64,000 nt of DNA from IMG/VR virus record IMGVR_UViG_3300022939_000016, positions 1 through 64,000 of that record. One strand, 5' to 3'. Position numbers and translations under genes: made by a program. The notes beneath the pieces are model-generated. The model made no database searches. It saw only the letters and a program-made list of their open reading frames with translations, and had not been told where the DNA came from. Shown here in pieces: positions 41,344 through 53,617 of this stretch; within the stretch, counting starts at the first letter, position 1; every line of letters starts with the position of its first letter. The DNA comes from a virus.

Positions 41344-42111
41344 TTATGCTTCAATTTCAATATATCTCTTACTTTTGGGTGGAAATTTAATCTCAATATT
41401 CTCTAAAATTCCAGCAACTTTGTTCTTCAGATCTTCTTTTTCGGTCAGCGATAAAGAGTCTGACATATGCTTGACTCTAATGATAACAAAGCCTTTGCTC
41501 AAAATCAAGCCCGTTTTATTGCTGTCTGCCTTAATTTGCTTTTGCAGCTTTTCTTCTCCCCATATTGGAACAAAGTGAGAAGGCCCATCTATCTCTATGA
41601 TAGCCTTAATCTTTGGGAAAAACATGTCGATCTCAAGATTTTGATTAGGTATAAGATTCTTTTTGTGAATTTCTACAGTATGCCCCAGCTTTGTAAATTC
41701 GTTTTTCAAAAATTTTTCCAGCTTAGAGCCTTCCTTTCCGGCGTTCTGTATAGCTTTAATGGCCAGTCTTCTCATGTTTTCTTTTTCTTCCTGTGGCATA
41801 TTCTTCCATCTATTTTTAGCTTTCTGCACATGGGAATCATATTTATCCTTTGCCATTTTTTTCCATTGATTTTTTTGCGACTTGCTTATTTTTAATCTTT
41901 CTTCTTTGCTTCTCTTTCTTCCTTCCGTGGGTATTTTTGCTTTACCTGTTTCCAGTGCATTTCTTTGCGCCTCGCTTTTACTTTTAAGATTCACTTTATT
42001 CTTGATCAGTATCCTTCTTATTTTATTTGGATAGGTATTCATAATGTCCGCTATTTCATATGTGCTTTTGTTTTCTTTTTCATATAATTTTACTACTTGG
42101 ATTTCGTTCAT
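41344..42111 (-). CDS. Free-standing homing endonuclease, Vsr-like (EDxHD-type)
   Basis: A 255-residue protein starting in an ATGA overlap with the upstream gene. The N-terminus carries a helix-turn-helix (KSTYEIADIM, IRRILIKN). The centre has RSKEERLKISKSQKNQW, a NUMOD3-type DNA-binding repeat followed by basic helices. The C-terminus has a Vsr-like nuclease pattern with E132, D162 (EIDMFF), then EIDGPSH (E173, D175, H179) and D196. This matches the fold and residue order of EDxHD homing endonucleases such as I-Bth0305I. It is probably a selfish mobile gene, inserted at the end of the glycan cluster. Confidence 0.7.
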   Translation of the reverse strand: MNEIQVVKLYEKENKSTYEIADIMNTYPNKIRRILIKNKVNLKSKSEAQRNALETGKAKIPTEGRKRSKEERLKISKSQKNQWKKMAKDKYDSHVQKAKNRWKNMPQEEKENMRRLAIKAIQNAGKEGSKLEKFLKNEFTKLGHTVEIHKKNLIPNQNLEIDMFFPKIKAIIEIDGPSHFVPIWGEEKLQKQIKADSNKTGLILSKGFVIIRVKHMSDSLSLTEKEDLKNKVAGILENIEIKFPPKSKRYIEIEA

Positions 42112-42546: not shown

Positions 42547-43419
42547 TTATTTCTCCATGCCTTCCAGAAAAACATGCGTTTCTTTTATTTGTGAAAAAAT
42601 TTGTTTCAGTCTATTTCTTGGCTTATGCCTGTCTCCTATTTTCAAGCGTACTTTGTCTTCATTATATATCTTTGCTTGATTAAAATCAAACATTGTTTCA
42701 TCGTCTAGCATCTTTGATAGCGATGACTGCAAAGCAATAGCCTCTTCTTTATTGTCATTATCAAAATACACCTTGGAGTTTGATAGCATTATTGCGTTAA
42801 AAAAACTTTCTGGAATCAAATTGGGTTTAATGTTCCTAAAAATAATTTCATGATAATTGTGTAAAATACCAGCCATAGAGAATGGGTTCAAGTTTGAATC
42901 TGCCCCAACGTCTTCTGGAGCATTGGAAAGGAAGTGATAAGAGCCTGAATATTCTTTCTTGTCTTCTTTTTTGTTAATTATTATAGCTTTGTCTATTTTA
43001 AAATCTATATCAGACTTTTCAATCTTATCATTAGCGCACTGCAAAACATGCTCATAGGGTATTCCGAAATCTTCCTTCTTATGATTTATGTTTGAACTGA
43101 ATGCCAGCGGGCAATTTATTTCTTTTTGATTTAGTATTTCTTTAATTAGTGGAATATGTTTGTCTTCAACTAAGTCTATGTTTATAATGTGCTTAACTTT
43201 TTTGGCAGAATTTTGATTGTAGTGTATCACGTTTCTCATGTCAGTTCCGATATTCATAATTACAATATCAGGCAATGTTCTGTCATAAACATAATACAAG
43301 TTTTCAGTTCCACCATTTACCATTATACATTGACAATCCGGTATCTTATTAATTTCTTCGTGTAGATACATTGGCTGAGAAGAGTCTTTTGTGCTATAAT
43401 TAAATATTACAAAGTTCAC
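42547..43419 (-). CDS. Divergent glycosyltransferase-like protein
   Basis: A 290-residue protein if started at GTG 43,419, which has AGGGGG nine bases upstream; an ATG at 43,446 would add nine residues but lacks a ribosome-binding site and overlaps the previous gene. Alpha/beta layout throughout; near the C-terminus NLIPESFFNAIMLSNSKVYF resembles the donor-side element of CgeB-like or other GT-B transferases. The usual nucleotide-sugar signature is weak. It is placed inside a run of glycosyltransferase genes. Assignment tentative. Confidence 0.4.
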   Translation of the reverse strand: MNFVIFNYSTKDSSQPMYLHEEINKIPDCQCIMVNGGTENLYYVYDRTLPDIVIMNIGTDMRNVIHYNQNSAKKVKHIINIDLVEDKHIPLIKEILNQKEINCPLAFSSNINHKKEDFGIPYEHVLQCANDKIEKSDIDFKIDKAIIINKKEDKKEYSGSYHFLSNAPEDVGADSNLNPFSMAGILHNYHEIIFRNIKPNLIPESFFNAIMLSNSKVYFDNDNKEEAIALQSSLSKMLDDETMFDFNQAKIYNEDKVRLKIGDRHKPRNRLKQIFSQIKETHVFLEGMEK

Positions 43420-43432
43420 TTTTATATACCCC

Positions 43433-44149
43433 CTAGTGCTTGGCATTGCTTAATTTAGTTATTGATTCGCCGCCTTGGTAAGGTAATATTTTTATCCCCT
43501 TTTTAATCATGTGGTTTATTACCTCGTAGAATATCTTGTTGTTGAAATTACCAGAATTGATGATCTTGTTGAATTCATCATTAATGCTTGATTCTTCCAT
43601 GTTCAAAACTTCACACCATCCGTCCCCCAAGCTTCCAAACGACATGTGTTCTATAGTTTTCGTTTCTTTATTTAAATTTACTTTAATGTCTAAGGTTCCG
43701 TCGCTAGATGTAACTATATGTTTTTTTTCTCTCAGCAGACCCTCAAGATCTTTCGGTCTTACTATATAATTACCATTTATTATCAGCGTTCGTTTATTTT
43801 TCGTATTATTTATAGCTAATCTAATTGATTCACATATTCCAGAATTTTCGTAATTAATGTTTTCTACACACCTGATGTCAACATTCTTGTATTTACTGTA
43901 TACATACTTCCTAATTCTTTTAGAGTCATATCCTGATGCAATAATTATTTCAAAGTCTTCTATTGCTTGCTGTATAGAATGTATTTGATAATCTATAACT
44001 TTCTGGCTGCTGTTTCCGATTGGGATAAAAGCTGCGTTTCCATAAGATTTCATCTTTGGTATAAAAGAATGATAAACCAGTATTACGGTTATCTTTCTTT
44101 TTTTTCTGTTTTTCTTTTTACTTTTTGATGTAATGTACTGTATGCTCAT
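43433..44149 (-). CDS. Nucleotidyltransferase-like (GT-A fold) protein, degenerate
   Basis: A 238-residue protein starting in an ATGA overlap. It has the strand order of sugar-phosphate nucleotidyltransferases of the LicC/GlmU type: KVIDYQIHSIQQAIEDFEII, then ASGYDSKRI, VDIRCVENINYENSG, SIRLAI and LIINGNYIV. The N-terminal GxGxR loop and the usual Asp pair (here NGN) are missing, so catalysis is doubtful. It could have become a binding protein or have shifted substrate. Context is glycan synthesis. Confidence 0.5.
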   Translation of the reverse strand: MSIQYITSKSKKKNRKKRKITVILVYHSFIPKMKSYGNAAFIPIGNSSQKVIDYQIHSIQQAIEDFEIIIASGYDSKRIRKYVYSKYKNVDIRCVENINYENSGICESIRLAINNTKNKRTLIINGNYIVRPKDLEGLLREKKHIVTSSDGTLDIKVNLNKETKTIEHMSFGSLGDGWCEVLNMEESSINDEFNKIINSGNFNNKIFYEVINHMIKKGIKILPYQGGESITKLSNAKH

Positions 44150-44565
44150 TTTTTTGTAAACTTAATATTGTATTTACTTTCAGAAGGTGAAAACTCTAAC
44201 GTACTACAAACCAAAGACATTTCTGCCATAATTTGTTTAACTAAAATAGCCGGATGAATATTGCTCTTGTCTTTTATGGCCTTGTTAAAATAGTCTTTAT
44301 CTCTATTTCTTATTGTGTTTTTACAAAGTAGGTCAATGTCGGTATCTTGTATGAAGCACTCTCCACCCATCCTGAGCTTTTTAGCACAAAAGCTCAAGCA
44401 CTTAATGAAATCATCATTGTCTACATAAGAAAGAGCGTCTTCAACGATTATCTGCATAATCGAATCATTAGGAAGTAGGTCTTCAGATATTTCCGCTATC
44501 TCTACGGTTTTTATGTTTTCTATTATACTACTACTATTTTTTTTGCTGTATATCTGCAATTTCAT
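44146..44565 (-). CDS. Methyltransferase-like small protein
   Basis: A 139-residue protein. I start it at ATG 44,565, which has GGAG 8 bases upstream; the earlier TTG would add only eight residues. The segment VEDALSYVDNDDFIKCLSFCAKKLRMGGECFIQDTD looks like strands 4-5 of a class I SAM methyltransferase, but the Gly-rich SAM-binding motif is missing. It may be a truncated or regulatory relative. Coupled to the nucleotidyltransferase-like gene (ATGA). Confidence 0.4.
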   Translation of the reverse strand: MKLQIYSKKNSSSIIENIKTVEIAEISEDLLPNDSIMQIIVEDALSYVDNDDFIKCLSFCAKKLRMGGECFIQDTDIDLLCKNTIRNRDKDYFNKAIKDKSNIHPAILVKQIMAEMSLVCSTLEFSPSESKYNIKFTKK

Positions 44566-44566
44566 T

Positions 44567-45553
44567 TTATAAACTCCGTGTTGCCTCAAAGGTTTGGTTC
44601 CAATGTTCTAAAAAGACATCTTCTCTAAAATCAGCTAATATTTTTTTTCTGGCGTTGTCGCCCATTTTTCTCGCCAGTTCTGGATCGTCTAAAAGTTGCT
44701 GAGTATATTTTTTTAACTCTTTTTCATCATTTGATATAAAACCCTCTACCCCATGAGTAATAACTTCCGGTATCATACATGTTGCTTTTGACACAACGGC
44801 GCACCCACAAGACATTGCTTCTAACACTGATTTTGGTATGGGACTAAACGTTGATGAGTTTAAAAATACGGAATGAGAATTATAAATATCAACTAGCTTC
44901 TCGACAGATTCAGTTGGCTCTGACAGACCGGGATTATCTCCAACCAAGGTAAAATCTAAGCCTTCTACTATATCCTTCCACCCCGTAAAATTCAAGCAAT
45001 AGTCTCTATTGATAAAATCGTTAGCGACCGTTAATACTTTATTTTCTCTACTTTGTTTTTGATTGTGAAAAACTTTGGTATCGATAGAATGTTTAATTAC
45101 TGTTGAGTTATATACAATTCCCCATTCAGATCTGGAATATTCGGAAATAAAAACATTAACATCCCCAACCATTTCTCTCATGGCGTTTATTTGTCCACTT
45201 GCCACAAGGTTGGGTGTTGGCGTTGTATGTTCTAGGGAAATAAGGGGTATTTTTAAAATATTTCTTAGCCTATGAGCAATATTAAATTGATCAAATCTAC
45301 TTTGGGCCAATATTAAATCAAAGCTCAAGTACGATAACAGCTTGTCCTCTGGCATTATTAGGTAGTTTTCTGGTATGCTTGCATATTCTTTTTTCCACTT
45401 CTTTCCCCCTCTTGCGTTTACTGCATAAAAATTATGTCCCGTTTTGCAAAGTTGGGTTTCATACCTTTCGTGCGTGGGGAAGGTGAGTATATTTAGCTTT
45501 CTACTTTTATTTTTATTGTTGGCTTTTTCTATGATTTCCTTGACTTTATTCAT
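44567..45553 (-). CDS. GT4-family glycosyltransferase
   Basis: A 328-residue GT-B protein. Near residue 234 the sequence PIPKSVLEAMSCGCAVV, followed by PEVITHGVEGFI, is the GT4 donor-binding pattern with its E-x7-E-like helix. The C-terminus has the usual DDPELARKMGDNAR helix. It is soluble and cytoplasmic by prediction. It overlaps the next upstream gene by 8 bp. Substrate unknown; it probably transfers a sugar from a nucleotide donor together with its neighbours. Confidence 0.8.
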   Translation of the reverse strand: MNKVKEIIEKANNKNKSRKLNILTFPTHERYETQLCKTGHNFYAVNARGGKKWKKEYASIPENYLIMPEDKLLSYLSFDLILAQSRFDQFNIAHRLRNILKIPLISLEHTTPTPNLVASGQINAMREMVGDVNVFISEYSRSEWGIVYNSTVIKHSIDTKVFHNQKQSRENKVLTVANDFINRDYCLNFTGWKDIVEGLDFTLVGDNPGLSEPTESVEKLVDIYNSHSVFLNSSTFSPIPKSVLEAMSCGCAVVSKATCMIPEVITHGVEGFISNDEKELKKYTQQLLDDPELARKMGDNARKKILADFREDVFLEHWNQTFEATRSL

Positions 45554-46664
45554 TAATAATTTCCTTTATCTTTTCGCCAACCGTTTGTAAATTAAAATTT
45601 AAAGCCTGCTTATATCCCTCTTCGTTTTTCGGTTTATTTTGTTCAAAGTAAAATCGCATAGCTTCTACTGCCATTCTTTCGTCTGGTCTCGCCCAATATT
45701 CGTTTCCTGTGAATATGTGTTCAAAGGCAGCGCCTTCGTTAGAGCAAATCTCTTGGGATCTTTCTATTAAGTATCCCGTATCTCGATTGTCTTCTAAAAT
45801 ATAATCACATGGCCCTCCCCATCTCGTGCATATGGGGTGGTTTCCATGACTCATTGCGTCGAATGATGGTATCGACCAAGCCTCTCCGTGAGAAAGATTT
45901 ACAAAACAATCGCAAAGTTGATGTAAATTTTTTATCTCATTCTCAGAAAACCTTTCCGCAATAATAATTATATCTCCATAACTATCGTGATCTTTATATA
46001 TAGCTAAATCTGTTCTTATTTTCTTGCACATTTCTTCCATGTGCATAAAAATTTGTCTTGGGTTGACTCCGAATTTTCCCACCTTTAAAATTAAACTTAC
46101 ATTTTCTTCTGGGCTAAATGCGCTATAATAACATTTGATTATGGATTCTATATTTTTTCTTTTAGTTAAATCTGATATCGCATAAAACTTGTACGAAGAC
46201 GTTGCGTTATATCTTTCAAAATTTACTTCCATTTTGTTTTCTTGTTTTATGATTTCCGTGTCGCAAGGTATTGGTACAACTTTAACATTTTTAATTCCGG
46301 CTTTTACTAAATCTGTTTTGTTTTCATTGCACGGAACCCAAACCTCATCCATTATTTCAAGATAATTAACCCAAATATTATGCTGTATATTATTAGATTC
46401 AAACATTGCATAAGCTATGTTTTTCTTAAATTTGTTAGTTCCAACAAGCATGTGTGGCAAAACGTGCTGAATGCAAATATCGATGTCTTTTTCTTCTTTT
46501 TGTTCTAGTTCTGACAGCCAATCTGGAATAGCACTATCTTTTGTGAGCGTAATATTTCTGCAAACAACTTCTATGCCAGCCTTAGTCATTGAAAGAATGA
46601 TTCTTTCTGCCGACTTGGCCCAGCCGGTTCCTTCTTTGTAATGACCTATGTATAGTACTTTCAT
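45546..46664 (-). CDS. GT4-family glycosyltransferase
   Basis: A 372-residue GT-B protein. The N-terminus MKVLYIGHYKEGTGWAKSAE has the Gly-rich loop of this family. The donor site HGEAWSIPSFDAMSHGNHPI lies near residue 258, followed by WGGPCDYI. It starts in an ATGA overlap with the 552-residue transferase gene. Acceptor and donor are unknown. Confidence 0.8.
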   Translation of the reverse strand: MKVLYIGHYKEGTGWAKSAERIILSMTKAGIEVVCRNITLTKDSAIPDWLSELEQKEEKDIDICIQHVLPHMLVGTNKFKKNIAYAMFESNNIQHNIWVNYLEIMDEVWVPCNENKTDLVKAGIKNVKVVPIPCDTEIIKQENKMEVNFERYNATSSYKFYAISDLTKRKNIESIIKCYYSAFSPEENVSLILKVGKFGVNPRQIFMHMEEMCKKIRTDLAIYKDHDSYGDIIIIAERFSENEIKNLHQLCDCFVNLSHGEAWSIPSFDAMSHGNHPICTRWGGPCDYILEDNRDTGYLIERSQEICSNEGAAFEHIFTGNEYWARPDERMAVEAMRFYFEQNKPKNEEGYKQALNFNLQTVGEKIKEIINE

Positions 46665-48319
46665 AAATTAAAAACCTCTGCTCTTTTTGTTTCCCATAGA
46701 TTTATGTTGTTTCTTTTGTTCACTAGTTGTTCGTGTGCGTATTTGATTGTAAATGGTTGATTTTCAATTTTTTTAGAGAGAGATACCACTGAATCATCTT
46801 CATTAAAAAATGAACCTATAATTGGAGATGTACTAAATCCATATATCAAATTATTCAAGATGTTGTCATATTCATAATTGTATTTGTCTTGTGGTTTGCA
46901 TAAAGCTTTATCAAACAGCCAATTTACCACATCTGGGTATGGGACATTGTTAAGTTCTTCTGGTATGTTACGTTCTGGTTTTTGTATATCTACTGGAGAT
47001 TTCCAAGATTTTTCCAAACTTAAAGTTTCAACTGAGTCAAAATATGATTCCCAAACCTTTCCGCTAATTTCCCACTGGAATTTTTTCAAAAAGTTTTGCC
47101 GCATTTCAAATCCTTCTTTTTTTCTCATAGCTAATGGTTTTGAGAAAAATTCAGAAAACATTTGTGCGGCAGCGTCATTGTCTGGTACTGCTCTTTCGCA
47201 TCCGGTTTCCATTTCTTTATAAAGAGACTTATAAGGTATAGCGTACCCATTTAGCTTTTTAATAACGCTAGACATGGCAGAGTAGTCAATGCTCATAACG
47301 GGAATTCCGCACGAAGCCGCCTCTACTTGTGGTAGCCCAAAGCCTTCCGAGTTTGCGTATTGAACGTATAAATCAAAACAATTCATAATTTTCGCCAAAT
47401 CTGGATAAGATAGTCCGTTCTTAACATTAGCCAGTTTAGCGGAAAATTTACCAGTAAAGGGAGATCTTGTTACCGCCCCGTGAAAATGTGAGGCAAAAAA
47501 TCTACCAGTTTCTAGGCATACATATGTAAATAAAACATATGAGTGCAGAGAATGCTCTGATAATATCTCTGGCAAATCCCATCCAGCATCTGGATAGCTT
47601 GTGTGGCAATATAGCTTATACTCATTGGGATTATTTGATGAGGATAAAAATTTTCTAAAAGCACTGAAGAGATCTGGGTAAAGCTTTCTTCTTTGATTTC
47701 TCATTACAGTCCCAATAATTTTTGTATTAGGATCAATTCCTAAACTTTCTCTTAAAGATTCTTTGTTTTCTATTGGTTTATATGAAAGGTCTGCCGAAGG
47801 AGACGCAGTTCCTATATAATTAATTTTATTTCTGGATTGCTTTTTAAGCACTTCTCCAGACCAGTCTGAATAACTGAGGCAGGCATCTGCCGCGCTGTAC
47901 ATGTTAATCCACTCTTTTGCTTGTGGGTATGCATCTACCGTTGGCATCAAAGCCCACTTAAAGAATTTCCTAAAGGGGGAATTGTGAACAAAGTCTGTCA
48001 TCCAGAAATCTCTAATATCACAAACAATGTCTGGTAAAAATTCTAGGCACACCCTTTCAAAAGCAAAGCCTCCAAACTGACTTTTTGGATTACTTTTATA
48101 TAGATTGGTTAATTCTTGGTTCGAAGGATCTGGCATGACACCAAAAAATTTCCAAGGGGCTTTTGATCTGGGGTCTTTGTCCATACCATAAGCAGCTAAT
48201 TCTGCTATTTCATATTTACCAGTACTATACAAATATTTAAGTATTTCCCTTGTGTAAGTAGCGTACCCAGTATTAAGAAAGGTAGCTTCAGAACAGAACA
48301 GTATCCTAGTTTTTCTCAT
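46661..48319 (-). CDS. GT4-family glycosyltransferase, long
   Basis: A 552-residue GT-B protein, longer than usual. N-terminal RILFCSEATFLNTGYATY, then near residue 324 the donor motif NSEGFGLPQVEAASCGIPVM. About 120 extra residues follow the usual end of the family and have no recognised domain. It starts in an ATGA overlap with the GT32-like gene. Substrate unknown. Confidence 0.8.
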   Translation of the reverse strand: MRKTRILFCSEATFLNTGYATYTREILKYLYSTGKYEIAELAAYGMDKDPRSKAPWKFFGVMPDPSNQELTNLYKSNPKSQFGGFAFERVCLEFLPDIVCDIRDFWMTDFVHNSPFRKFFKWALMPTVDAYPQAKEWINMYSAADACLSYSDWSGEVLKKQSRNKINYIGTASPSADLSYKPIENKESLRESLGIDPNTKIIGTVMRNQRRKLYPDLFSAFRKFLSSSNNPNEYKLYCHTSYPDAGWDLPEILSEHSLHSYVLFTYVCLETGRFFASHFHGAVTRSPFTGKFSAKLANVKNGLSYPDLAKIMNCFDLYVQYANSEGFGLPQVEAASCGIPVMSIDYSAMSSVIKKLNGYAIPYKSLYKEMETGCERAVPDNDAAAQMFSEFFSKPLAMRKKEGFEMRQNFLKKFQWEISGKVWESYFDSVETLSLEKSWKSPVDIQKPERNIPEELNNVPYPDVVNWLFDKALCKPQDKYNYEYDNILNNLIYGFSTSPIIGSFFNEDDSVVSLSKKIENQPFTIKYAHEQLVNKRNNINLWETKRAEVFNL

Positions 48320-48960
48320 TTTGTTAAAAATCCCATTCCCCTTGTATAGTTTTCATACCTCGACATAGCTATTAATTTTCCTTGACAAACACAAGCATAT
48401 TTATTACCAAGGCTTACCTCTTGTGCTAACTGTATATTCATGTTTTCTATTTGATATTGACCCATTCTTAATTCTTTTTTATTTACGACATTGCTTACGT
48501 TCTTATACATGTCTTCTGTTGTGTAATAAAAATCATGCCGTGCGGTTTCTGGCTTCATTATATCTTTAATGCACTCATAAATAATCTCGTTGTCTTTTTC
48601 CGCATAAAGCAATGCCTGAAAAATCATAGGCCCAATAGCAGATATCACACTAAAAAAATTCAAGTTTTTTATGACATATGATGAAATTGGCATTTTGTGT
48701 TCAATGTCTATATCGCAGTAGTACCCACCTCTTTTAAGAAGATAACAATATCTGAAAAAATCCCCCTTGGTACAACCTTTTTCTAGCGTATGAAAAAAAT
48801 CTACATAAGATTGATCATACTCTTTCTTAAGAAAGTTTACAACATCTTCGTCTGAAAAAAATAAAACATCCTTTTCAGGATTTAATTTTTTAATATTGCT
48901 AATTATATAGCTGGGGATTTTATTGTCTCTGTAGGTTAATATAATATTATCTGGAATCAT
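48316..48960 (-). CDS. GT32-like DxD glycosyltransferase
   Basis: A 214-residue protein. KGDFFRYCYLLKRGGYYCDIDIE at residues 65-87, written here as K65-G-D67, R70 and D83-x-D85, is the OCH1/GT32 and capsular-synthesis signature in which DxD binds the metal and nucleotide sugar. N-terminal IPDNIILTYRDNKIP also fits. It is coupled to SSB upstream by TAATG, and is the first of the glycan genes after SSB. Confidence 0.75.
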   Translation of the reverse strand: MIPDNIILTYRDNKIPSYIISNIKKLNPEKDVLFFSDEDVVNFLKKEYDQSYVDFFHTLEKGCTKGDFFRYCYLLKRGGYYCDIDIEHKMPISSYVIKNLNFFSVISAIGPMIFQALLYAEKDNEIIYECIKDIMKPETARHDFYYTTEDMYKNVSNVVNKKELRMGQYQIENMNIQLAQEVSLGNKYACVCQGKLIAMSRYENYTRGMGFLTK

Positions 48961-49274
48961 TAATCTTCTTCTTCTTCATTACATATATCAAATTCGTTGA
49001 CCCTAAATATTAATTCGTCATCATCCTTAGATCTATGCTTTACAGAGGCGTGAATGGTTATCTTGCTTCCTTTTCTTGTATTTCTTTCTATTATTTCTGC
49101 CCCGGTGTGCCACGCTTCGCATTGTATGTATGTTGGCGTTCTGTTTTTTTCTCCCGTCTTTTTTGTTTTTCTGTAGCTATAAACAACCATTACAAATTCA
49201 GACAGTAAAACATCGCCAACAAAATTAGTCCTTGGATTTTCTACCAAATATCCAGTAAAACAACAGTGATTCAT
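48960..49274 (-). CDS. ssb: Single-stranded DNA-binding protein (SSB)
   Basis: A 104-residue OB-fold protein with the order of bacterial SSB: MNHCCFTGYLVENP, FVMVVYSYRK, YIQCEAWHTGAEII, then KGSKITIHASV. It ends in an acidic tail NEEEED that may recruit replication partners, though it lacks the classic terminal Phe. Shine-Dalgarno AGGAGG sits close before the ATG. It should coat ssDNA during replication and recombination. It leads the glycan run and lies just after the polymerase genes. Confidence 0.8.
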   Translation of the reverse strand: MNHCCFTGYLVENPRTNFVGDVLLSEFVMVVYSYRKTKKTGEKNRTPTYIQCEAWHTGAEIIERNTRKGSKITIHASVKHRSKDDDELIFRVNEFDICNEEEED

Positions 49275-49321: not shown

Positions 49322-50887
49322 CTAAACTTCGTGAATTTTCTCAATAATAAAAGACGAGTCGTTTTTAGCAACAGACCCGCATAGAATTAAATTATTACCT
49401 TCGTATAAAATGTATTTATATTTTTGCTTTGTTTTCGGAAAAGCTATAACGCTGTCTAGTACGCAGGTGTCGTCTTCTATGGTTAAAAACGACATTATTT
49501 GCCCCTTTGAGTCTCCCTTGCTTATTTTATAATCTGACACTCGCTGTATATTAGCTACCACGCATAAGTTCTGCCCATGTTTGCCATTAATTATTTCCTT
49601 GCAAGTTGTGTTGGCGGCAGATGTATCTGAAACGTCTATTTTTGATAATGTTATTGGGCAGCCCAAAAACTTTACTTCTTGGTCAATTATCCAAGTTGGT
49701 TCATCTTCCAAGCTGTATGGTGGATTTTCTAATAAATTTACTTCATTGTTGATGATCTGTTTCCTTTCTTGTTTGCTAGTTCCTCCCCCCTCTTTCTTTG
49801 TTGGAGCTAAATCTATAAGTGCAGATGTAAAATCTTTCCACTTTTTACTTTCATAGTTGTTAGCAAGCCATTTCTTTTCTGCTTGAGTCAAAACCCTGTA
49901 TATTTCGTAATCGTATAGAGCCTTATTCCTCGTGACCTTGCCGTTAAAGTCTCTAAAGAAACCTATAGATGCCAGAGCCTTAAAGGCAGTAGAATTAATA
50001 CGAGGAGAGAAAAACAATAGCAATTCCACCCATGAAAACTTTGTTATTTTTTTATCCAATTCTAATTCTGATTCTAATATTGACCTTAGTACAGAATCTC
50101 CAGTTTTTCCTGTTAGAGATTTGATATCCTTAATACCAAAATATATTTTATGTTTTTTTGCATTAAACTTTTCTTGATAATTAGCAATGCTAGGCGTTTT
50201 GGTATGAATTTCAAAAAGCTTTGCTTCTGAAACTAATTCATATATCTCCTGATGCGGATCTTGCTTCTCGTTAGCGTAATATAAGTAAGATAGAAAGAAT
50301 TCTTCTGGATTGTGGGCCTTTTGATACGCACTCCAATATGAACATACGGCGTATGATATACTGTGAGACTTGTTAAAGGCGTAACGTGACGATGCCTGAA
50401 TCCATCCAAAGATTTGTTCTGCCTCTTCCTTAGTTACAATCTTGGCCTTCTTAGCTCCAGCTATGAACTTTTTCTTAACCTTAGCCATTAGGTCAGCCTT
50501 TTTCTTTCCGATGGCTTTACGAAGCTCGTCAGCTTCTTGTAGATCGAATCCAGCGATCTTTTGGGCGATACGCATGGACTGCTCCTGATAAACCAGAACG
50601 CCATATGTTGGTGCTAGGATTTCCTCTAACGCTTCATGCAAGTATGTTACTTCTTCACGGCCATGCTTACGGTCAATGAAGTGCTGTGTCATAGACTTAC
50701 CATCAACATAAGCCTTGAGGCATCCCGGCCTAATAATTGCAATAAGTGCGGACAGTTCTTCGATATTACTTGGAGCAAGTTTCTTTGACCACGATTTACC
50801 AAGGTTGCTTTCTAGCTGAAAGACACCTTTAGTTTTACCGTCTGCAAATAGTTGCCAAGTTTTCTTGTCATTATATTCCATTGTCAT
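49322..50887 (-). CDS. dnaE: DNA polymerase III alpha, C-terminal half (split DnaE)
   Basis: A 521-residue protein that begins where the other half ends. It carries the finger and later parts of DnaE: VFQLES at residues 22-27, FIDRKHGREEV, APTYGVLVYQEQSM, LRKAIGKKK and FNKSHSISYAV. A C-terminal OB-like segment starts near NLCVVANIQRV. The catalytic Asp residues are on the other half (52,058-53,617). No intein sequence is present at its N-terminus. It starts at an ATG overlapping the preceding gene by 17 bp. The two halves presumably assemble into one polymerase. Confidence 0.88.
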   Translation of the reverse strand: MTMEYNDKKTWQLFADGKTKGVFQLESNLGKSWSKKLAPSNIEELSALIAIIRPGCLKAYVDGKSMTQHFIDRKHGREEVTYLHEALEEILAPTYGVLVYQEQSMRIAQKIAGFDLQEADELRKAIGKKKADLMAKVKKKFIAGAKKAKIVTKEEAEQIFGWIQASSRYAFNKSHSISYAVCSYWSAYQKAHNPEEFFLSYLYYANEKQDPHQEIYELVSEAKLFEIHTKTPSIANYQEKFNAKKHKIYFGIKDIKSLTGKTGDSVLRSILESELELDKKITKFSWVELLLFFSPRINSTAFKALASIGFFRDFNGKVTRNKALYDYEIYRVLTQAEKKWLANNYESKKWKDFTSALIDLAPTKKEGGGTSKQERKQIINNEVNLLENPPYSLEDEPTWIIDQEVKFLGCPITLSKIDVSDTSAANTTCKEIINGKHGQNLCVVANIQRVSDYKISKGDSKGQIMSFLTIEDDTCVLDSVIAFPKTKQKYKYILYEGNNLILCGSVAKNDSSFIIEKIHEV

Positions 50888-51407
50888 ATTCTTGATTCTT
50901 AGTTAAACATAACTCTTCAAACGTTTTACATCTAAATTCTTCAAATTTAGGTATAGTATCTTCTTCTGTCTTGTAACCGTAGTTTATCGAACCCTGTTTG
51001 TTTGTAGGGTGTATGCTTACCATTTTAATCCAATTTTTTTTAGGCAATGCGTAATACATTACATTTTGTTTTATGGAGTTGTATACAACTACTCTTAGAG
51101 TTCCATGTTTTTCTTTTCCCCCATGTGAAACAACTCTATCGACCAATCCTCTTTTCCTGTTATTTATAGTAGAAGATTTACAATCGCTTCCGTCGCTAAA
51201 GTCCATGTGGTGACAATCTATTCTCTCGTACCCACCAACGTATGACATCGCCTCTTCTAATAGTAGAGAAACATCAAACCATTCTGGATTAATTTTTTCG
51301 ATGTTAACAGCTTCTGCAAAAGTTGGATGATAAGGTATAATTACTTCCTTTATCAATATTTGCTTTTTTGTTTGTGTCAACGCGCTATTTAATGTAGAGA
51401 TTTCCAT
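50871..51407 (-). CDS. Unknown protein between polymerase halves (possible nuclease fold)
   Basis: A 178-residue protein. I start it at the ATG at 51,407, overlapping the exonuclease by 23 bp; an upstream alternative start would add six residues. The central segment IDCHHMDFSDGSDCKSST followed by LRVVVYNSIKQNVMYYALPKKNW resembles a D-x(n)-K nuclease core I recall from conserved phage hypotheticals, but it cannot be called with confidence. It overlaps the polymerase C-half start. A polymerase accessory role or a mobile insertion are both open. Confidence 0.5.
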   Translation of the reverse strand: MEISTLNSALTQTKKQILIKEVIIPYHPTFAEAVNIEKINPEWFDVSLLLEEAMSYVGGYERIDCHHMDFSDGSDCKSSTINNRKRGLVDRVVSHGGKEKHGTLRVVVYNSIKQNVMYYALPKKNWIKMVSIHPTNKQGSINYGYKTEEDTIPKFEEFRCKTFEELCLTKNQEYDNGI

Positions 51408-52065
51408 CTGCAAACGCCCTTTCAAATTCGATGTTTTGGTAAACTGCTCTATGTGTTTTCAGCAGCTTTATGAATATGTTAGCGGTGTCTTTAACGTCCT
51501 GTAAGGCATCGTGAGCATTTTCCGAAGATAAGCCCATGCGCTCACGTAAAGAATCCATACTAATTGATTTAACGCTAGGATCACTCTCAGTCCACAAGAA
51601 AACATTATCCATAAGATCCACTTTATATACTTTGCTAAACAGTTTTTGCTGCAATCTTCCATCGTCCCAAGGTCCATATTGCCTGCATAATCGATTGATA
51701 ATTACCATATCAAAACCAATGATATTATAGCCCACGGGAATTGGGGCGAAGAAAGGTTCACCCTTCCAGTTGTATTGATCAACAAATTTTGTAAACTTAT
51801 TCCAAACAGACTTTAAAGCAGGTGCTTTAGATAACCCCTCTCTGGTTTTACCAGTGACCTTTAAGGCTCCTTCTTCAATTGGATCTATTCCGGCAGCAAT
51901 TGCTTCGTCATCATCAAGAATTGGTTTAATTTCACTATTAAAAGTTCCCTTAAGCGTTAGGCTTCTTCCATCAAGAGCCACTGCGGCTATCTGTGTAGGC
52001 TGTGTTTTGTTAGGATTGCGAGATCCTGTTTCAAAGTCAAATACAATATAATCCCTATTAGCCAT
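51385..52065 (-). CDS. DEDDh 3'-5' exonuclease (proofreading, DnaQ-like)
   Basis: A 226-residue protein with all five DEDDh residues: D10-F-E12, D119 (NIIGFD), H185 (AHDALQD) and D190. This is the DnaQ/epsilon type that removes misinserted bases for DnaE polymerases. GGAG precedes the ATG, which overlaps the N-half stop by 8 bp. Placement between the two polymerase halves, together with a PHP domain that lacks its metal ligands in the N-half, suggests it supplies proofreading. Confidence 0.85.
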   Translation of the reverse strand: MANRDYIVFDFETGSRNPNKTQPTQIAAVALDGRSLTLKGTFNSEIKPILDDDEAIAAGIDPIEEGALKVTGKTREGLSKAPALKSVWNKFTKFVDQYNWKGEPFFAPIPVGYNIIGFDMVIINRLCRQYGPWDDGRLQQKLFSKVYKVDLMDNVFLWTESDPSVKSISMDSLRERMGLSSENAHDALQDVKDTANIFIKLLKTHRAVYQNIEFERAFADGNLYIK

Positions 52066-53617
52066 TTTTTATCTCCTGTATTTTCATTAGTTTATCTAGG
52101 AGATTAATTCCTAGAACATCAAACTTTACATGACCTAGAGCTTCTAAGTCAGACATTTCCAATCCTGCGATCTTTTCTGACGATCCTTTCTGTTTAACCA
52201 TTGGACACACTTGGTGTAGAGGATCTTTTGATATGACAACGCCAGCGGCATGTTTGCCTTGAGTCTTAAAAGTCCCCTCAATGTCTATGGCCTGCTGGAA
52301 ATATTGGGCATAATCACCTTCTAGTTTTCCATTTTCCAGAATGTGACAAAAATCCCTCAACTCATCAGCACGATTCAATAATGACCAACGAATAATAGAT
52401 CTATCTTCATCATCCATATCTGCAAGTTGGTCAGAAATATCTGCTTCGTTTGGTATACTCTTTGTTATAGCGTTCATCTCGCCAAAAGAACAAGCGTCAT
52501 TTATGCGCAGCACTTCTTTTATTGCGCTTCGCCCTTGCAGTCTACCAAACGTAATCATTTGACTTACATGATCCTTGCCGTATTTACCCTTGAGATAATC
52601 TATAACATCATCACGCCTCTTTCCCGGAACGTCCATGTCAATATCTGGTAGAGATACGTGACCATCAGTGTTTCGTCCAGCATTGTAAAATCTTTCAAAC
52701 AGTAAGTCGTATTCCACTGGGTCAATTTTTGTAATTCCAATTAAATATGATATCAAGCATCCAGCTGCCGATCCTCGTCCCGGACCAGCCAAGCATCCCA
52801 TATCATGCTCTACGTGCCTGATAATATCCTGCACGATGAGGAAGTAGCCAAATAGATTTGCATCTTTAATGACTTGTAGTTCTGAATTAAATCTATCTAG
52901 ATATTTCTGCTTATCTTCTGGCTTCTTTACTTTACCAGTGTCAATAAGATGACGTTTCCAGCCTTCTCTGGCAAGCACCTTGAGGTAATCTTCTTCAGAT
53001 AATCCTTCTGGACAATCGAACTTGGGAAGCATGGGAGGACTGAGAATATCATAGTCTTCACATACTTCATAGATATGCTGCAACTCCTTTGTTACTGCAA
53101 CGGGTTGTATACACTTGTCATCGTGCGTAAAGTATTGCGATACCGCTTTGTCCAGTTCGTTCTTGCGAAGCTGTTTTTGTATTTTAGGCAACGTGGTCTT
53201 TAGTGCTGAACATAATAATACTCTATGTAAACCAGCCTGTTTAGAATCAACATAATAGCTTGGTTGAATATTTTTACTTATAGATATGAGATTGTCCCTT
53301 GACATAATCTCTTGACAGAATTTTATATTAACATTTCCATCTTCGTCTAAAGATGATACCATTTCTATTAAGTCAAACCATCCATCTTTATTTCTCGCAA
53401 AGACTGCATTATTGTCAAAGGAGCAGCCAAGGATTGGCTTAACACCAACCTTCTTGCAAGCCTGAAAAAACGAAACACAACCAGAAATAGATTTGTAATC
53501 TGCAATACCACATGCTGGATAATCATTATCAGCACAAATCTTGGCAAGTTCAGTTGGTTTTGAGAATCCTTTTAGCAAACTGTAATGTGTAAAATTACGC
53601 AATGGAAACCAATTCAT
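52058..53617 (-). CDS. dnaE: DNA polymerase III alpha, N-terminal half (split DnaE, catalytic)
   Basis: A 519-residue protein with the PHP and palm parts of DnaE. The catalytic residues are all here: D325 and D327 in LPDIDMD and D500 in VKFDVLG, with AGPGRGSAAG near 278 as the nucleotide-binding loop. The protein stops soon after D500, where full-length DnaE continues into the fingers, and the missing part is encoded separately at 49,322-50,887. In the PHP domain the usual H-x-H near the start is replaced (NFTHYS), and the region before the palm is about 75 residues shorter than in E. coli. A sigma70-like promoter lies just upstream. No intein. Confidence 0.9.
   Translation of the reverse strand: MNWFPLRNFTHYSLLKGFSKPTELAKICADNDYPACGIADYKSISGCVSFFQACKKVGVKPILGCSFDNNAVFARNKDGWFDLIEMVSSLDEDGNVNIKFCQEIMSRDNLISISKNIQPSYYVDSKQAGLHRVLLCSALKTTLPKIQKQLRKNELDKAVSQYFTHDDKCIQPVAVTKELQHIYEVCEDYDILSPPMLPKFDCPEGLSEEDYLKVLAREGWKRHLIDTGKVKKPEDKQKYLDRFNSELQVIKDANLFGYFLIVQDIIRHVEHDMGCLAGPGRGSAAGCLISYLIGITKIDPVEYDLLFERFYNAGRNTDGHVSLPDIDMDVPGKRRDDVIDYLKGKYGKDHVSQMITFGRLQGRSAIKEVLRINDACSFGEMNAITKSIPNEADISDQLADMDDEDRSIIRWSLLNRADELRDFCHILENGKLEGDYAQYFQQAIDIEGTFKTQGKHAAGVVISKDPLHQVCPMVKQKGSSEKIAGLEMSDLEALGHVKFDVLGINLLDKLMKIQEIKNG

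Follow-up and report, generated by a model that had tools for sequence, protein, structure and literature searches.

The window analysed here, a stretch of 64,000 nucleotides (positions 1 to 64,000) of the IMG/VR virus record IMGVR_UViG_3300022939_000016, carries a DNA polymerase III (Pol III) alpha subunit of the DnaE type that is encoded in two separate genes. All four open reading frames (ORFs) of the polymerase locus are on the minus strand, and their coordinates and lengths agree exactly with those in the earlier note that had drawn attention to the split. The first to be transcribed is alpha-N, the N-half of DnaE (52058-53617, 519 amino acids (aa)), in which Pfam recognised a PHP remnant (approximately residues 1-190) and a complete palm/thumb. 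It is followed by EXO, a DnaQ-like DEDDh 3'-5' exonuclease and candidate proofreading subunit (51385-52065, 226 aa, Pfam RNase_T), by an unknown ORF (50871-51425, 184 aa when read from a TTG) and by alpha-C, the C-half (49322-50887, 521 aa), with the fingers, a helix-hairpin-helix region and an OB fold. An SSB gene identified by a profile match (48960-49274, minus strand) adjoins alpha-C downstream and adds to the replication context.

The presence of a DEDDh exonuclease and an unknown gene between the halves was therefore as the earlier note had described it. EXO contains the motifs DFETG, GFD and HDALQD and corresponds to phrog_192 in PHROGs (DNA polymerase exonuclease subunit, E=2e-26), and is probably, judging by its sequence, the proofreader of the split polymerase. 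Its start overlaps the end of alpha-N by 8 nt, and a ribosome-binding-like GGAG can be read ahead of its ATG in the overlap region (52040-52090, minus strand), from which we infer that the translation of alpha-N and EXO may be coupled. The unknown ORF matched no family in Pfam or PHROGs, and its true start is probably an internal ATG (MEISTLN...). As it is kept (81-92%) in only a few close relatives and is confined to the subclade of the window, it can be placed outside the core arrangement.

The polymerase domains are divided cleanly between the two proteins. Alpha-N matched the Pfam families PHP and DNA_pol3_alpha (E=1e-68, model positions 2-260 of 260) and holds all three catalytic Asp: D325 and D327 in PDIDMD and D500 in KFDVLG, which correspond to D401, D403 and D555 of E. 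coli alpha and are invariant in the N-half alignment. Alpha-C matched DNA_pol3_finger (PF17657, E=6e-50), aligns with DnaE from the fingers through the OB fold, and carries GVFQLES, RPG, YQEQ and FNKSH, the last at residues 171-175 (50363-50377, minus strand).

Alpha-N stops 19 residues past D500. Its alignment to E. coli alpha extends to residue 563 and leaves the last 11 residues unaligned, whereas residue 5 of alpha-C aligns with residue 591; this places the break at approximately 574-587 of E. coli alpha, between palm and fingers. The two alignments nearly abut, therefore nothing conserved has been lost at the junction. Together with the Pfam matches, this bears out the earlier description of a dnaE broken shortly after the third Asp and resumed at the fingers. 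The claim that no conserved block is missing stood at the break, but not for the PHP domain, which is approximately 100 aa shorter than the full PHP of relatives, with about half of the domain gone.

Structure prediction gave a similar picture. When alpha-N was modelled alone with AlphaFold2 (predicted local distance difference test (pLDDT) 88.9, predicted TM score (pTM) 0.86), its last strand (497-504) and helix (505-518) were complete, and the alignment and model together put the break in a linker past a complete palm helix. Alpha-C alone was modelled with a pLDDT of 86.2, with the lowest confidence in the RPG region and at FNKSH. These stretches carry conserved polymerase motifs, and the weak confidence is suggestive of an interface that is left unsatisfied in the isolated chain.

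The best PDB matches of both half models were DnaE structures, and the fold matches of alpha-N showed 22-25% identity to DnaE compared with 12-15% for PolC entries. In PolC the exonuclease domain is inserted in the PHP of the same polypeptide, whereas EXO is a separate gene. Bacterial DnaE is thus the closest known enzyme by both sequence and fold, with the same polymerase domains and catalytic residues, including the catalytic Asp and the fingers that define a DnaE-type C-family polymerase. The window enzyme differs from it in being two genes rather than a single polypeptide, in having lost half of the otherwise complete PHP, in lacking the tau-binding C-terminal region in alpha-C, and in having a DEDDh gene between the halves.

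To place the split among relatives, four IMG/VR scans were carried out, from 100% down to approximately 42% identity (a figure for the C-half) and beyond, with a single scan of genomes from bacteria and archaea as a contrast set, and loci were typed by searching all frames with profiles for the two halves. N and C parts were located in separate ORFs in 133 distinct viral loci, a count that takes in the Rossellomorea phage phiT1 and the locus L319, and were fused in none (0/133). In the contrast set, 78 of the 80 loci were fused, ordinary DnaE. The other two showed N-EXO-C and lie on contigs of 9.4 kb (from a Flavobacteriales metagenome-assembled genome (MAG)) and 15 kb (from a Lokiarchaeota MAG), which are probably of phage origin and had been binned into the MAGs. 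An assembly error, which the earlier note had raised as a possible cause of the split, can be excluded because the same break is present in 133 distinct loci, and a local frameshift was rejected on the same grounds.

The position of the break is constant across the family, with alpha-N ending 1-17 aa past the conserved palm and alpha-C starting at the same position of the fingers, preceded by a head of 0-53 aa. The surrounding genes are less constant. Groups I (which includes the window) and II have the order N, exonuclease, C; in group III, whose records reach 181 kb, a stretch of 5-8 kb with glycosyltransferase-/methyltransferase-like genes separates N from C, and the N-halves carry an insert of approximately 90 aa at the FERF/PDID site. 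In L319, a ribonuclease HII gene lies between the halves.

Throughout the family the catalytic and fingers motifs are invariant, and in each of N, EXO and C dN is 0.015-0.16, against a dS that ranges from 0.55 to saturation. Both halves are under strong purifying selection. The N tree and the C tree both unite groups I, II and III with the same inner order, and the pairwise distances of N and C are correlated (r=0.96 over 118 loci), as would be expected if the two halves are inherited together. Most likely, a single fission took place in the ancestor of this large group of uncultured tailed phages and was then kept.

Two genes for one DnaE do not have to result in two chains. Cyanobacterial DnaE (Ssp/Npu DnaE inteins) is likewise encoded by two genes and is joined by a split intein, at a site presumably near FNKSH, approximately 170 residues beyond the break in the window. 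Covalent joining of the halves after translation in this way has next to no likelihood here, even though a split intein is carried elsewhere in the C-half by L128 and L206. Neither alpha-N nor alpha-C of the window had a Pfam match to Hint or an intein, in a scan that did detect the Int-N half in L128 and L206 and a full intein in L201, and the 1-17 aa that follow the palm leave no room for an Int-N at the break. The absence of an intein from both halves, as claimed in the earlier note, was therefore upheld.

Inteins are present at other places in the C-halves of the family. L128 (4173-7020) and L206 (4112-6999) have a three-piece DnaE in which the C-half is broken again by the split intein within FNK|SH; the Int-N matches PF14890/Hint, the Int-C ends GIATSN|SHAVSY, and the palm/fingers break is free of inteins. 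Contiguous intein-like inserts were also seen at several C-half sites in L201 (5989-8325), L222, L223, L225, L227 and L229. The L201 insert, which has an HNH domain, is an intein by Pfam, and L225 appears to hold two inserts.

Another way to obtain a single chain would be to rejoin the gene at the RNA level, by a group I/II or trans-splicing intron, or to read across the break by a programmed frameshift or bypass. Phage polymerase genes can hold introns (PMC2993671), and the 8 nt overlap of N and EXO could be read in favour of such an event, but we consider it very improbable. No Rfam intron was found in the window between 48.5 and 54.5 kb, and the interval between the halves is filled by conserved protein genes under purifying selection. 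All frame combinations of the N, EXO and C genes are found, with spacing from an overlap to several kb, and frame relations and distances that vary so freely argue against a fused polypeptide made by a conserved frameshift; the 5-8 kb gap of group III and the ribonuclease HII gene of L319 would also have to be crossed. With no intein, no catalogued intron and no conserved frame relation, non-covalent assembly, which the earlier note had deduced, is the possibility that remains.

It could also be that the two chains never share an active site and do separate jobs, for example with alpha-C as a DNA-binding factor. The large distance between the N and C genes in group III would fit such a division. 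However, the co-inheritance of N and C is complete, and to our knowledge GVFQLES, YQEQ and FNKSH of the fingers work only at the palm active site, therefore this explanation is improbable.

We consider it very probable that the only detected replicative polymerase of these phages is a two-chain enzyme of the DnaE type, with chains that dock non-covalently into one active site and with a fission that is most likely ancestral. Alpha-N would supply the palm with all the catalytic Asp, and alpha-C the fingers, helix-hairpin-helix region and OB fold. Both chains would be expressed, along with the DEDDh exonuclease, from a single cluster of overlapping genes, and would dock along the natural palm/fingers interface to rebuild the active site. 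The formation of an alpha-N:alpha-C complex, its polymerase activity and the role of the exonuclease are predictions from sequence.

The search for another polymerase is consistent with this. The source record, a contig of 78.7 kb, has one palm match and one fingers match. The same was true of each of 40 whole records (that of the window and 39 relatives, 36-200 kb), always in different frames, so an intact DnaE elsewhere in the genome, which the earlier note had named as evidence that would overturn the split, was looked for with palm and fingers models and not found in any of them. The models for PolB (PF00136) and PolA (PF00476) matched none of 48 records, the longest of which has 199,884 bp, in a search that did not extend to protein-primed PolB or other polymerase types; no replicase other than the split enzyme was thus observed. 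Given the purifying selection, the co-inheritance and the lack of PolA and PolB, the two chains are most likely the replicase of the phage. One candidate for an intact phage relative, 'Staphylococcus phage Kay' (L083, OR844993.1), was rejected, as the record looks like S. aureus chromosome with an intact 1065-aa dnaE beside housekeeping genes.

Two points weigh against a split enzyme as the replicase. The family consists of uncultured contigs, none of which was called at least 90% complete, therefore the genomes may still encode another polymerase beyond the ends of these contigs. In addition, a sliding clamp was not found (PF02768) and there was no obvious canonical clamp-binding motif, which leaves processivity without an explanation. 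The missing clamp gene, together with the truncated PHP, which in the subclade of the window has also lost its HxH, DH, DxH metal-ligand pattern, could instead indicate a decaying or non-functional dnaE in a phage that uses the host polymerase. This is highly unlikely, as the polymerase motifs are invariant, both halves are under strong purifying selection and both are always present.

The loss within the PHP may instead be related to the exonuclease in a working two-chain polymerase. The full PHP is kept in groups II and III and also in the group I member L063, and a DEDDh exonuclease was detectable in only 1 of 10 group III records, where it accompanies a full PHP. There is thus a gradient from PHP without a detected DEDDh (most of group III), through both (group II), to a degenerate PHP with DEDDh (most of group I), which suggests that the exonuclease took over proofreading where the PHP degenerated.

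A second variable feature is a CxC...C element at the N-terminus of alpha-C, which is present in groups II, III and L319 and absent in the group of the window. By pattern it occurs in approximately 54 loci, a count from which a spurious match ahead of the phiT1 start has been removed; examples at the start of the C-half are L070, L145, L185, L206, L215, L223, L231, L232 and L319. The element may be a metal site at the chain junction. A more speculative extension, which we regard as possible but rather doubtful, is that the ancestral fission created an obligate two-subunit Pol III core in a major uncultured tailed phage group, that CxC...C in groups II, III and L319 clasps the N chain through a bound metal, and that in the group of the window EXO replaced the lost PHP activity, resulting in a co-translated alpha-N/epsilon/alpha-C polymerase.

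The earlier note had called a two-chain C-family polymerase unusual. It is indeed unusual, but not without precedent, since both phage polymerases and a Pol III alpha have been published in split form. For jumbo phages of group 2.2, Iyer et al. 2021 (PMC7824862) reported a minimal Pol III alpha that is encoded by two widely separated genes and occurs alongside a family B polymerase. Like the window enzyme, it is a phage C-family alpha in two intein-free, stand-alone proteins. The minimal alpha keeps the core domain only and is accompanied by PolB, whereas the window enzyme is near full length and neither PolB nor PolA was found. In Atu_ph07 the N protein of the minimal alpha ends YDLDFSEFLE and the C protein starts MKNIPDIDIDF, which places the break before the catalytic Asp and all of them on the C protein; in the window it falls after the third Asp with all of them on the N protein. 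The two splits are therefore not the same.

Cellulophaga phiST, Bacillus phage Jayan and Atu_ph07 (L082 5680-9280; L312 3483-6890; L324, L328) share another natural break site, at FERF|PDID, which precedes the catalytic Asp. Cellulophaga phiST gp38/gp39 and Jayan were considered as examples of the break in the window and were rejected for this reason. The Jayan break could be an intron, although there was no Rfam match at gathering level.

The break of the window was found in the cultured Rossellomorea phage phiT1 (PV767480; L311 2989-6271), in which gp20 and gp18 are separated by the 49-aa gp19 and there is no intein. Unlike the window, phiT1 has no exonuclease between the halves, and because it falls outside the family on both the N and C trees, it is probably an independent fission. 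In the B family, the split gp43 of Aeromonas phages 25 and 44RR is a replicase in two proteins, as proposed for the window, and in phage 25 the 43A and 43B proteins purify together and are active as a polymerase (PMC2988022). That split has been described in few phages and is linked to a homing endonuclease or an untranslated insert, in contrast to the old, family-wide fission of a C-family enzyme whose halves, in groups I and II, flank a conserved exonuclease gene. A survey of approximately 2000 bacterial genomes mentioned only intein-split and frameshifted alpha genes (PMC3919608), and in the open-access literature no published N-exonuclease-C arrangement was found beyond PMC7824862.

As far as could be found, C-family replicases are otherwise single chains, apart from the intein-joined DnaE of cyanobacteria, and the sole published intein-free phage split is minimal and stands beside PolB. 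A near-full-size replicase that has apparently remained two chains throughout so diverse a group of phages would mean that the linker between palm and fingers is dispensable. It could provide a natural two-part Pol III for studying the communication between fingers and palm and for constructing polymerases that are split or switchable; phiT1, being cultured, offers a laboratory system for the palm/fingers break. Annotation pipelines may call split palm and fingers genes broken.

The wider context in the window is a phage replication module with DnaB, primase, a UvsX-like recombinase, dNMP kinase, ribonucleotide reductase and PhoH. A homing-endonuclease-like protein (phrog_559, phrog_9084) is encoded at 41344-42111. 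Just downstream of the replication genes there is a cluster of genes that by eye are glycosyltransferase-like (42547-48960), and genes of a similar kind separate N from C in group III (L215). Frameshifts within N of L195 (3222-5113) and within C of L205 (5977-7582) were each seen in a single contig and are probably sequencing errors.
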